DNA of 10,833 nt from Candidatus Uhrbacteria bacterium (lineage in GTDB: Bacteria; Patescibacteriota; Patescibacteriia; UBA9934; GWF2-40-263). Shown here one piece after another: positions 572 to 8,132 of this stretch; the stretch's first letter is position 1; each line of letters opens with the position of its first letter. Where the stretch lies: NCBI GenBank assembly GCA_903831335.1, contig CAIKXH010000082.1, forward strand, positions 1 to 10,833, written 5' to 3'. The notes under the pieces are model-generated. The model was not told where the DNA came from. It worked only from the letters and a program-made list of their open reading frames with translations, and made no database searches. The position numbers were made by a program, and so were the translations under genes.

Positions 572-1168
572 ATGTGGATTCTTTTTCTTGTCGGCTTTAT
601 TTTTCTCGCCTCTCTTGCCTACGCCTCAAACGCAGGTGCGCCTTGGGTTCCAACCTGGAAAAAAGATTTTGAACGTATTAATAAACTCGCAAATCTACAA
701 CCCGGAGAAACATTCATTGAACTCGGCTGCGGAAATGGTCGTGTGTGTCGCGCCGTTGCCAAGGCGGTTGGGAAGGCGTCCCCACCCATGCCCTCCCCTC
801 TGTTGAGGGGAGGGATAACGCGCGTTACCTCCCCCTTAACCAAGGGGGAGCATGAGGGGGACGTCTTCGTCATAGGCGTGGAACTTTCATTGTTGCAATA
901 CCTTATCGCACAACTCCAGGTAAAATTAAGTGGACTGAAAAACATTCAGATGAAACTAGGGAATGCATTCCACCAGGATCTGTCGAAAGTGGACGTCGTC
1001 TATATGTTTTTCATGCCAGAGACGTACAAAAAGATTCGTGGAAAACTGGATAAGGAATTAAAACCCGGTGCGCGTGTCATCACGTATGTTTGGCCCATAG
1101 AAGGTTGGGTGCCTGTCACGATTGATGAATTGGAAGGTCAGCCAAAGATTTATGTGTATCAAAGATAA
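572..1168 (+). CDS. Membrane-anchored class I SAM-dependent methyltransferase with in-frame repeat insertion
   Basis: This is a 198-aa protein. Residues 1-19 are hydrophobic (a membrane helix or uncleaved signal). The Rossmann SAM-binding motif I is ELGCGNGRV at residues 50-58, and the acidic residue ending strand beta-2 is E104 in VIGVELS. DVVYMFFMPE (141-150) and LKPGARVITYVWPI (163-176) match motif IV and the following strand/turn of small CPR methyltransferases. Residues of about 68-99 (KASPPMPS ... EGDVF) do not belong to this fold; they are translated from the palindromic repeat at 772-868. Removing 32 codons restores about 20 residues between GCG and the acidic residue, the usual spacing, and leaves 166 aa. 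The insert sits in the loop before beta-2, so the enzyme may still fold. The substrate is unknown. The start is set by the extended -10 box just upstream. The gene ends in a strong terminator. Confidence 0.85.
   Translation: MWILFLVGFIFLASLAYASNAGAPWVPTWKKDFERINKLANLQPGETFIELGCGNGRVCRAVAKAVGKASPPMPSPLLRGGITRVTSPLTKGEHEGDVFVIGVELSLLQYLIAQLQVKLSGLKNIQMKLGNAFHQDLSKVDVVYMFFMPETYKKIRGKLDKELKPGARVITYVWPIEGWVPVTIDELEGQPKIYVYQR
772..868. repeat. Cruciform palindromic element inserted within a coding region
   Basis: The outer arms GAAGGCGTCCCC (772-783) and GGGGACGTCTTC (857-868) are inverted with one mismatch. Inside each half is its own hairpin: CCCTCCCC/GGGGAGGG on the left (791-814) and CTCCCCCTT/AAGGGGGAG on the right (829-850). 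The centre TAACGCGCGTTA (816-827) is a perfect 12-bp palindrome. The whole unit can therefore fold as a four-armed cruciform. It is read through in frame by the methyltransferase gene and adds about 32 residues. Similar C-rich/G-rich hairpin repeats occur in many bacterial genomes; the layout resembles MITE or RPE-type elements. No transposase is encoded. Confidence 0.85.
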
Positions 1169-2923: not shown

Positions 2924-2933
2924 ATTTTTTTTC

Positions 2934-3019
2934 TGTCATTGCGAGGAGGCCAGCAGGCCGACGAAGTAATCTTTCCGGTAAGATTGCTTCGTCGTCGATG
3001 ACTCCTCCTCGCAATGACA
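2934..3019. repeat. Palindromic repeat with CATTGCGAGG ends (copy 2)
   Basis: It has the same 13-bp perfect terminal arms as copy 1 (TGTCATTGCGAGG at 2934-2946 and its complement at 3007-3019). The inner arms are GACGAAGTAATCTT / AAGATTGCTTCGTC, with a lateral hairpin GGCC-AGCA-GGCC on the left. This lateral hairpin corresponds to the right-hand lateral hairpin of copy 1, so the two copies lie in opposite orientation around the 1320-2867 gene. It directly abuts the terminator of the 3117-3668 gene. Confidence 0.9.
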
Positions 3020-3099
3020 CAAAAAAACAAAAAGAAAACCCCGAGCTGTGAAGAAAGTGACGTCGAGCTACGCTCGAGGTTTTCTTCACTTGCTCGGGG
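3020..3099 (-). terminator. Long three-part intrinsic terminator of the 3117-3668 gene
   Basis: Read on the minus strand, starting 17 nt after the stop codon: stem 1 CCCCGAGC/GCTCGGGG (3092-3099 with 3039-3046), stem 2 GTGAAGAAA/TTTCTTCAC (3081-3089 with 3048-3056), and apical stem TCGAGC/GCTCGA with a 3-nt loop (3063-3077), followed by TTTTCTTTTTG and a further T run (3020-3038). The stem is unusually long for an intrinsic terminator. Confidence 0.9.
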
Positions 3100-3116: not shown

Positions 3117-3668
3117 CTAGGCCGTCGCGTGGCGATCGGTCTTCGGACGGCGCGGGCGGCGATCGGGCGTGTCGATCTCGGCGTTCAGCGGAACCACCTG
3201 GAGGCAGTGGTTGCGCTTGTTGTCCGAGGAGACGTGGGCGAACATGCCGTTGTCGCCGGCGATGTCGCGGTGCGCGCGCGGGGCGGCGGGGTCGTGGATC
3301 ACGATCTGGCACGTCGGGTCTTCCTTGGAGGGGAAGCAGTTGACGTACATCTGGTAGTTCCGCCACCCGTTCCCGTTCGAGGGTTCCCAAGTGCGGATCT
3401 TGATCACGATCTTGCCGCTGATCTCGCCATCGATCACTTGCAGGCCGTCGCGCAGGTGGACGTCCACGCCACGCATGTTAGCGTACAAGAATCCGGTCGC
3501 GCCGTTCATCTGCTGGCTGAACTCGACACCGGCGGTGTTGATCATGGCGTTGACGTCGATGATCGTGTAGGTGCGGCGCACGGACTTTCCGTCGCGGCTG
3601 GTGTCCTCACGGTCGCAGGTCAGTCCCTTGATCAGATCTTCCATGAACTTGTTGGTGCTGAGGCTCAT
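3117..3668 (-). CDS. Conserved-looking protein of unknown function, GC-rich, probably highly expressed
   Basis: I do not recognise a family for this 183-aa protein. It has no signal peptide or membrane helix. The core (residues of about 35-160) alternates beta-like stretches (RTYTIIDVNAM, GEISGKIVIKIRTWEP, QMYVNCFP, CQIVIHDP), suggesting an all-beta or OB-like soluble domain; the tail is basic and proline-rich (DTPDRRPRRPKTDRHATA), as in nucleic-acid-contacting tails. Four cysteines are scattered without a zinc pattern. The start at 3668 is firm: AGGAG sits 5 nt upstream of the ATG. GC content is visibly higher than in neighbouring genes, locally about 70 percent, with many C/G-ending codons. 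A consensus promoter, a long leader and a strong terminator make it a stand-alone, probably abundant transcript. The base bias may reflect strong expression or horizontal origin; the sequence alone does not decide. Confidence 0.8.
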   Translation of the reverse strand: MSLSTNKFMEDLIKGLTCDREDTSRDGKSVRRTYTIIDVNAMINTAGVEFSQQMNGATGFLYANMRGVDVHLRDGLQVIDGEISGKIVIKIRTWEPSNGNGWRNYQMYVNCFPSKEDPTCQIVIHDPAAPRAHRDIAGDNGMFAHVSSDNKRNHCLQVVPLNAEIDTPDRRPRRPKTDRHATA

Positions 3669-3926: not shown

Positions 3927-3938
3927 CGCCGAGAGGTC

Positions 3939-4028
3939 GTAGTTAGTAGTTTGTAGTTAGTAGTTAGGGTTTTGGAATTTCTTTTTTATTTTCTCATCCC
4001 TAACTTCGAACTACTAACTACAAACTAC
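3939..4028. repeat. Inverted pair of 7-nt tandem arrays (unit CTAACTA)
   Basis: The left arm (3939-3969) is built of GTAGTTA/GTAGTTT heptamers and the right arm (3998-4028) of the complementary CNAACTA heptamers. The arms are inverted copies matching at 27 of 31 positions, separated by a 28-nt T-rich loop. The right arm is repeated in direct orientation after the S23 gene (4414-4449). The array lies between the promoter and the start codon of the S23 gene. Confidence 0.85.
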
Positions 4029-4036
4029 TTATTTAC

Positions 4037-4417
4037 ATGGAGGATATGGAACAGAAAAAAATATCGCACTTTACAGATTTGAATGTTTGGCAAAAAGCGC
4101 ATGAACTTGTTTTGTTAATTTATGATTTGACCGATCATTTTTCTCAAGACGAACGTTTTGGTCTTACGAGCCAAATGCGCAGAAGTGCTGTATCGATCAC
4201 ATCAAATATTGCTGAAGGATTTGGGCGTCGAACGTTCAGTGATAAGCGTCATTTTTATGACATGGCTGTTGGTTCTATTTTCGAACTTCAAAATCAGTTG
4301 TATATTGTCAGAGACAGAAAATATGTTTCTTCAAATTCTTTTGATCTGGCAACAAAGTTTTCAACAGACGTTCTCATGATGACAAATGCGCTCATTTCGT
4401 CATTGTCTCGTCTCTAA
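4037..4417 (+). CDS. Four-helix-bundle protein (S23 / 23S rRNA intervening-sequence type)
   Basis: This 126-aa protein has the family hallmarks: FTDLNVWQKAHELVLLIYDLT (residues of about 12-32), FGLTSQMRRSAVSITSNIAEG (about 47-67) and the FGRR...KRHFYDMAVGS stretch with a following helix. The length is typical. Members of this family form pentameric helical bundles; relatives were first found inside rRNA intervening sequences, and the Avd accessory protein of diversity-generating retroelements is related, but the role of stand-alone members is unknown. The ATG at 4037 is chosen over that at 4046 because the GGAGG preceding the second ATG is only 2 nt away. CTAACTA-type heptamers bracket the gene, and its stop codon TAA lies within the first heptamer of the downstream array. 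No reverse transcriptase or template repeat is present. Confidence 0.9.
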   Translation: MEDMEQKKISHFTDLNVWQKAHELVLLIYDLTDHFSQDERFGLTSQMRRSAVSITSNIAEGFGRRTFSDKRHFYDMAVGSIFELQNQLYIVRDRKYVSSNSFDLATKFSTDVLMMTNALISSLSRL

Positions 4418-4449
4418 CCCCTAACTACTAACTACAAACTACGAACTAC
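4414..4449 (+). repeat. 7-nt tandem array (CTAACTA) after the S23 gene
   Basis: Five consecutive heptamers: CTAACCC, CTAACTA, CTAACTA, CAAACTA, CGAACTA. The TAA stop of the S23 gene (4415-4417) is inside the first unit. It shares unit and orientation with the right arm at 3998-4028 and ends 8 nt before the ATG of the next gene. Confidence 0.85.
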
Positions 4450-4456
4450 TCCCCCT

Positions 4457-8014: not shown

Positions 8015-8132
8015 CATGTCATCCTGAGCGAAGCGAAGGATCTCATGTTTCCATTGGTACCATTAAATCTGATTGAGACGATTCTTGTATTATTTAAAAC
8101 GCGAGATCCTTCGCTTCGCTCAGGATGACATG
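8015..8132. repeat. Palindromic repeat with CATCCTGAGCGAAGCGAAGG ends
   Basis: Two perfect 29-bp inverted arms (8015-8043 and 8104-8132) enclose a 60-nt AT-rich centre. The arm CATCCTGAGCGAAGCGAAGG is a repeat end seen in many bacterial genomes. The left arm starts 6 nt after the PBP stop codon and the right arm ends 4 nt before the murF-like ATG, so the element fills the whole intergenic space. The mRNA would place a 29-bp stem immediately before the MurF start. Confidence 0.9.

Follow-up and report, generated by a model that had tools for sequence, protein, structure and literature searches.

We describe here a 97-nt palindromic element within a methyltransferase gene of a member of Candidatus Uhrbacteria, which consists of two inverted copies of a repeat unit of approximately 47 nt and is read through in frame. 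The explanation that we favor, and that we regard as probable taken as a whole, is that the palindrome is a pair of dispersed units of triplex design lodged in a loop of the methyltransferase, that it is mobile and largely neutral, and that elements carrying DUF559 genes are its autonomous relatives. The initial annotation interpreted the palindrome as a mobile-like element translated within a protein, and this interpretation is supported, with the refinements given below.

The palindrome and its host methyltransferase

The window, by which we mean the whole stretch of DNA analyzed, is a contig of 10,833 bases from a draft genome of 852,255 bases that lies in 176 contigs and is 81% complete. 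The features discussed here are as follows.

572..1168, plus strand: SAM-dependent methyltransferase gene (open reading frame; N-terminal helix, likely membrane)
772..868, no strand: complete palindromic element, a head-to-head pair of units (sequence reading, RNA fold)
773..865, plus strand: codons 68–98, predicted disordered loop, from helix 57–67 to strand 99–104 (AlphaFold2)
776..824, minus strand: left unit (match to models R1/R2, 50 bits, E 1.9e-12)
779..814, minus strand: putative class II intrastrand triplex core, nine perfect triads (strict motif scan)
815..826, no strand: perfect 12-bp palindromic center TAACGCGCGTTA joining both units (read by eye)
819..865, plus strand: right unit (match to models R1/R2, 53 bits, E 2.9e-13)
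829..861, plus strand: putative class II intrastrand triplex core, eight perfect triads (strict motif scan)

The palindrome at 772–868 is confirmed as first described, with a perfect 12-bp center, a hairpin in each half, and outer arms, 12 nt long as read by eye, that contain one mismatch. The predicted RNA fold of positions 750–890 is unusually stable (z = -5.45), with none of 200 shuffled sequences reaching the same stability, and nothing in the window matched Rfam at gathering thresholds. The claim that the frame is unbroken also holds, as the gene reads through the palindrome without a stop, and the element is expected to add about 30 residues to the protein. An earlier estimate of about 32 was correct as to an in-frame gain and slightly too large, the net difference being about 30 between the 198 residues of this protein and the 168 of its nearest insert-free homologue (P0003); the residues at the junctions of the insert are also altered, beyond the net gain.

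By profile comparison the methyltransferase family appears nearest to the archaeal protein-lysine methyltransferase structures 5fa8 and 5jwj, which are the first matches of a 92-homologue profile (E 2e-30 and 6.5e-30 respectively), and its Pfam and NCBIfam matches are all below cut-off, including NF041081 at E 8.2e-14. Three solved structures, 5fa8, 5fad, and 5jwj, come closest to the host enzyme by profile; they align from a point past its N-terminal helix and have a short loop at the insertion site, and we take all three to be aKMT4. The named homologue loci are those of Candidatus Uhrbacteria and other Patescibacteria.

Comparison with homologues indicates that the segment is an addition at this loop. 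Matches to the methyltransferase are present in 55 of the 59 genomes of the relatives set, its own included, and most of the good matches listed are split into two stretches that skip about residues 65–99. A clean gap had been predicted at about residues 68–99, and 22 of 24 aligned homologues indeed lack a segment there (the 24 were picked from 30 loci by a simple motif rule, and the window's own locus is among the six left unpicked); the other two, from G004 of the same genus and from G018, have different segments exactly at the insertion site. The distance from motif I to strand 2 in a larger protein database is mostly 22–23 residues, with a minority at 31–52 (112 of 120 sequences parsed). 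On a tree of 36 near homologues built with the loop excised, ten sequences have an insert, the window's among them, and at least nine state changes are required, with 15 of the 33 inner branches left open and gains not distinguishable from losses; P0002, which has an insert, and P0003, which has none, are close sisters on this tree. Nearly every insert thus looks like an event of its own. The expectation of a disordered loop is borne out by the AlphaFold2 model, in which residues 68–98 are predicted to be without secondary structure between the motif-I helix (57–67) and the strand at 99–104, with a mean pLDDT of 90 for the protein and block means of 52, 49, and 77 over residues 71–100.

Other segments are seen in this family. 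The methyltransferase insert of G004 (L044) reads as a simple triplex unit as in P0007, APSPFEGEGGGRGVV, together with two segments nested in it, one of which contains a perfect 16-bp palindrome, TGCCTGCCGGCAGGCA, and all are in frame. A second loop, after the next helix, has extra segments in L060 (G028), L067 (G014), P0068, P0074, P0075, P0082, P0091, and P0105, which look like other dispersed repeats read in frame, mostly of the GAGCGAAGCGAAGGATC kind. Judging from this second loop and the nested segments of G004, other repeat families seem to enter genes in a similar way.

The remainder of the window contains repeats of further types. Inverted repeats at 3932–3972 and 4416–4456, which are 88% complementary and of the GTAGTTAGTAGTTTGTAG kind, flank a small gene at 4037–4417 for a protein of the 23S rRNA intervening-sequence type (PF05635), a layout that resembles that of the DUF559 genes considered below. 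Intergenic repeats of two further types occur at 1200–1326, 2926–3027, and 8015–8132; one type reads TGTCATTGCGAGGAGG...GACGAAGCAATCTT, and the other, GTCATCCTGAGCGAAGCGAAGGATCTC, is present as a long hairpin that separates the PBP gene from the Mur-ligase gene. A gene for a 183-residue protein at 3117–3668 on the minus strand is without a Pfam match, and its G+C content by eye is above that of its surroundings.

Dispersal of the unit within genes

The initial annotation called for a search of the genome for further copies and for a count of those within reading frames. A covariance model of the half unit finds 28 places in the same genome at E<=10, and the 21 with E<=0.24, which include the two units of the window, were classified. 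Fifteen of the 21 are in frame, within 12 genes: the methyltransferase (two units), Pth, UvrB (two), UvrC, RsmA, LigA, PheT (two), MiaA, ComEC, and RecG, together with an aspartoacylase-like gene and a putative glycosyltransferase gene that are both below family cut-offs. Pth, UvrC, RsmA, LigA, PheT, MiaA, ComEC, and RecG are above their NCBIfam cut-offs; UvrB, which holds the other full palindrome, matches at E 2.7e-194 with the cut-off unreached, its reading frame being cut by the edge of the locus. One of the remaining units runs into the C-terminus of a flippase-like gene, and five lie outside genes or at their edges.

Orthologues from the same genus were compared at these sites (24 loci fetched, using those that aligned, with the glycosyltransferase left out). 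The segment is missing from the orthologues of Pth (2 of 2), LigA (4 of 4), PheT (1 of 1, at both sites), UvrC (3 of 4), UvrB (2 of 2), and RecG (1 of 2), and the inserts of Pth, LigA, and UvrB fall in gaps relative to the best solved structure of each. At MiaA (2 of 2), RsmA (1 of 1), and ComEC (3 of 4) the orthologues are shorter by 8, 8, and 6 residues, which is less than a unit, and the aspartoacylase-like gene shows no gap in G002, which has a segment of like length, while G001 has a segment from a different repeat there. The UvrC and RecG sites have a different insert at the same place in G004. In G003, ComEC contains what looks like a decayed form of a similar unit, which suggests that inserts may be passed on over long periods. 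By eye, no target-site duplication was recognized at the inserts, the empty sites having diverged.

The unit is not confined to this genome. It is found by covariance model search in at least 12 of the 59 genomes of the relatives set, its own included, and with the rebuilt model R2 in at least 40 of 379 genomes drawn from the phylum, both counts being lower bounds with up to 104 candidates scored per genome in the first search and 16 in the second. Units lie in genes with a family match in 8 of 10 instances in G004, 16 of 23 in G022, and 6 of 9 in G005 (NCBIfam at E<=1e-12 or Pfam at E<=1e-6, some below the curated cut-offs). In these three genomes and that of the window together, 45 of 63 classified units are in frame in recognizable genes, which is partly a selection effect, because out-of-frame copies would not count as within a gene. 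The hosts in the relatives include RlmD, with the unit just before a GIELS strand, ValS, IleS, PrmC, TGT, MnmA, QueA, MiaA, MurC, HolB, DinB, a UvrD-type gene, and TatD in both G022 and G005, and in G055 most units are outside long genes. We inspected 30 of 34 units at loci from across the phylum and chose ten gene-like reading frames, which are examples and not a rate; all ten matched Pfam (MgsA, CysS, GuaA, DinB, TGT, transketolase twice, LGT, PolA, and Wzy).

We also note that units lie at what by eye seems to be the same loop of TGT in L181 (G022) and L214 (G013), and of TatD in L171 (G005) and L185 (G022). Many hosts in the four genomes are genes for DNA repair, tRNA modification, or tRNA synthetases.

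This distribution bears on two other accounts of the insert. One is that it arose by a lineage-specific expansion of a loop or of low-complexity sequence without any inserted element, and peptides rich in glycine, proline, and glutamate can indeed arise in this way; however, the DNA unit itself turns up at positions that are unrelated to one another, on either strand and in three frames, and its mirror and hairpin relations hold across variants, such that we find this account hardly credible. The other is that metagenome assembly has pasted repeats into genes, for which one may point to the 176 contigs of the draft genome and to metagenome assemblies as the source of most sequences. Units within genes are nevertheless present in the two-contig genome G022 and in independent records, and the ComEC unit is shared by descent between G003 and the genome of the window, which makes an artefact exceedingly improbable.

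The units have a preferred orientation within genes. The purine-rich strand is the coding strand in 31 of 39 single units in recognized genes of the four genomes (p 0.0003, or 0.0019 when weighted by open frames), and one frame is used by 20 of the 31 sense units (p 0.018 against its share of open frames), all of these p values being optimistic, since the units of any one genome are not of independent descent. By genome, the sense bias is significant alone only in that of the window (11 of 11). The preferred frame reads P-S-P-x-x-G-E-G-x-G-E-V, K-G-E-H-E-G-V, or K-E-G-x-G-E-V, and a preference of this kind would point to selection on the peptide, although it is weaker than that for orientation. 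An orientation preference together with a very stable predicted fold could also indicate that the unit is an RNA or DNA signal, such as a pause, attenuator, or stability hairpin, that serves regulation and is translated as a by-product. We consider this quite improbable, as the units are in many unrelated genes, deep within coding regions, and their placement varies from one species to the next, close sisters having empty sites, and the preference for one frame, though weak, would be a signature at the level of protein.

We infer instead that the element is DNA of a mobile and largely neutral kind, which can persist within a gene only if it preserves the reading frame and lies in a tolerant loop. 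The unit would move or be copied to new sites, with out-of-frame and otherwise harmful landings being lost, and in-frame landings in tolerant loops persisting and decaying. The suggestion that a palindromic element had been turned into a protein segment is upheld as far as an in-frame repeat is concerned, but not as exaptation, there being no sign of a useful loop and a neutral insert fitting equally well.

A class II intrastrand triplex design

The unit has a consistent layout of a pyrimidine run, a short loop, a complementary purine run, a few nucleotides, and a purine run that is the mirror image of the first. In 87 of 89 units, those with long enough arms, the third run agrees at 0.944 of positions with the first run of the same unit read as its mirror, counting T for A as a match as class II allows, compared with 0.826 (sd 0.010) for swapped third runs, none of 500 such sets reaching the observed value. 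The mirror relation still stands out if T for A is disallowed (0.856 compared with 0.748, sd 0.009). A direct-repeat relation between the two purine runs was rejected, as it shows no excess without T for A (0.746 compared with 0.748) and a small one with T allowed (0.834 compared with 0.808, sd 0.007). In the covariance alignment A5 many units are one register off, with 72% of cells paired and 97% when slid by +1, and model R2 was built from A5 and hence has the same register weakness; pairing was therefore assessed afresh in each unit.

The published class II rules, taken as stems of 6–15 nt in the order pyrimidine, purine, mirror purine, with loops of 1–6 nt and at most one mismatched triad, describe 89 of 90 units on the unit strand and 6 of 90 on the other, and both units of the window are among those that conform. 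Perfect class II motifs with stems of at least 8 occur only twice in the whole window, searched on both strands, and these are the two halves of the palindrome, at 829–861 (plus) and 779–814 (minus); a first-order Markov model of the window, resampled 200 times, yields none. Its sequence design thus places the unit among the class II (purine-motif) intrastrand triplex motifs, and its folding as a triplex is a prediction from that design.

DUF559 genes and comparison with known systems

Four units adjoin DUF559 genes, in the genome of the window (C27) and in G022, G055, and G014. The family (PF04480), a putative Vsr-like nuclease family, is present in 25 of the 59 genomes, and one member also matched a restriction-endonuclease-like Pfam family below cut-off. 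Of 30 DUF559 loci in a first set, drawn from the best-scoring matches and not at random, 21 have a GC-rich class II motif (stem of at least 7) within 250 bases, with 44 motifs in 24,079 near bases and 3 in 67,282 far bases, and the remaining 9 have no motif in that range. Control loci have such a motif in 6 of 59 instances (2 of 29 at the methyltransferase, 0 of 6 at Y1 transposases, and 4 of 24 at orthologues of the remaining genes; Fisher p 1.4e-8), several control genes being themselves hosts of units and many control loci lying in genomes without units. A second set of 30 loci, likewise from the best-scoring matches but in other genomes across the phylum, gives 17 of 30 with a motif (p 5e-6 against the same controls), with 29 motifs in 24,392 near and 4 in 70,467 far bases by motif midpoint, and 13 loci without one within 250 bases. 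Of the 20 loci with motifs on both sides of the gene, 18 have their nearest pair in inverted arrangement, as judged by eye (p 0.0004); 8 of the 18 pairs face outward like the window palindrome and 10 inward, and in three of these loci one motif overlaps the matched domain.

The two features also co-occur among genomes. In the 379-genome set DUF559 is found in 36 of 40 genomes with units and 65 of 339 without (p 4e-19, uncorrected for phylogeny and with part of the unit matches being those beside DUF559 genes themselves), and in the 59-genome set in 11 of 12 with units and 14 of 47 without (p 0.00014). Several observations count against such a link, among them the inward-facing pairs and the loci without a nearby motif. 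Five genomes (G001, G080, G107, G186, and G370) have units and no DUF559 match, and no motif was found near E. coli K-12 ycjD, annotated as DUF559. The dispersed units resemble those flanking DUF559 genes in three of six genomes (G022, G005, and G004); in the incomplete genome of the window they are no closer to the unit at its single DUF559 match than to those of other genomes (0.42 compared with 0.44), and a similarity is likewise not clear in G055 and G014.

REPs associate with Y1 transposases, and intragenic GTAG/CGTC REPs were reportedly treated by Di Nocera et al. 2013. A REP- or REPIN-like element mobilized by a Y1 (RAYT/IS200-type) transposase must also be considered. In favor of this model, the units seen here are short palindromes, both single and head to head, and are dispersed, and Y1 matches are present in 36 of the 59 genomes, including 11 of 12 with units and 25 of 47 without (p 0.019); the genome of the window has one partial match, on the same contig as the recG unit. 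However, the GTAG/CGTC tag is absent from the unit lists, R1 units are missing from three same-genus Y1 neighborhoods (L110–L112) with a fourth (L109) containing only the recG unit, and class II motifs are near none of the six Y1 loci, a small sample from other genera, as opposed to 21 of 30 DUF559 loci. G055 has units and no Y1 match, and co-occurrence in the 59 genomes is stronger for DUF559 (p 0.00014 against 0.019). A Y1 transposase is thus not favored as the partner, and we regard this model as unlikely.

We infer that DUF559 proteins spread the units. In our preferred explanation, DUF559 nuclease-like genes flanked by inverted unit pairs would be the autonomous relatives, although we are less sure of this part; the 97-nt palindrome would then correspond to the inverted pair of such an element minus its gene, and a single unit to one end. 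As a conjecture, the nuclease might act on the unit ends and nick or cut targets, with repair copying the unit in. A broader proposal, which we hold tentatively and think somewhat more apt to fail than to stand, is that Patescibacteria harbor a kind of mobile DNA, so far not recognized as one, in which a gene for a DUF559 nuclease of the Vsr/PD-(D/E)XK-like kind is bounded by inverted triplex units, gene-less palindromes and single units are its dependants, the nuclease recognizes or processes the triplex fold, and units spread in frame into the loops of core enzymes. If so, the orphan PIT/TM repeat gains a candidate mobilizer, and core proteins repeatedly gain new loops.

The closest known sequences by design are the intrastrand triplex motifs that Holder et al. 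2015 discuss, with reference to Hoyne and Maher (PMC4666352). Like the PIT/TM-ECO elements described there, the units have a pyrimidine run, a loop, a purine run, a short loop, and a reverse-Hoogsteen mirror run, and are G/C rich, single or in inverted pairs, dispersed, and without assigned function (PMC4666352). That paper describes the E. coli motif TM-ECO as always intergenic, with no strand bias in MG1655, and reports no association with transposons, phages, or plasmids and nothing in support of stable triplexes being formed in living cells (PMC4666352). Unlike TM-ECO as described there, the units of Patescibacteria are mostly in frame inside genes (45 of 63), have a sense bias in single units within genes (31 of 39), and cluster as motifs beside DUF559 genes. 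The TM-ECO consensus given in that source, CCCTCNCCC N3-6 GGGNGAGGG N3 GGGNGAGGG (PMC4666352), does not fit by eye either the right unit (CTCCCCCT/AGGGGGAG/GAGGGGGA) or the third run of the left unit (GGGTGGGGA). In the literature, intrastrand triplex repeats date back to about 2000 (Hoyne and Maher, via PMC4666352), without a mode of spread in the part of it so covered, and DUF559 is a family of unknown function; given the link between the two, a single small protein and a single oligonucleotide would suffice to put both questions to the test. DUF559 is unmentioned among the literature matches listed, from searches in which it was not queried by itself, and the matches listed, which come largely from outside subscription journals, include no account of triplex repeats or palindromes read in frame in Patescibacteria.

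By behavior, the units are similar to other repeats that enter genes. The parallel with Rickettsia palindromic elements drawn in the initial annotation stands as a likeness of behavior and is refined by the finding that the unit is an intrastrand triplex motif; as with those elements and Wolbachia repeats, in the portions of the sources considered, palindromic repeats are read in frame in unrelated genes (PMC10969869, PMC3733652). The units share with Rickettsia palindromic elements the trait of in-frame insertion in conserved genes, although the host phylum is different. Intragenic GTAG/CGTC REPs, as far as the relevant part of their description goes, are also short palindromes and dimers inside open reading frames, with the same reported bias in other bacteria toward DNA repair and tRNA genes, and one gene has a REP at nearly the same position in two related species (PMC3733652). 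The units differ from the REPs so described in tag and sequence and in their association with DUF559 genes. Repeated arrival in one enzyme loop, with at least nine changes among 36 sequences, provides a natural record of insertion-tolerant loops in organisms with small genomes. Protein-coding palindromes are already known from Rickettsia; those described here, in Patescibacteria, have a triplex design, a sense bias within genes, and an association with DUF559 genes.
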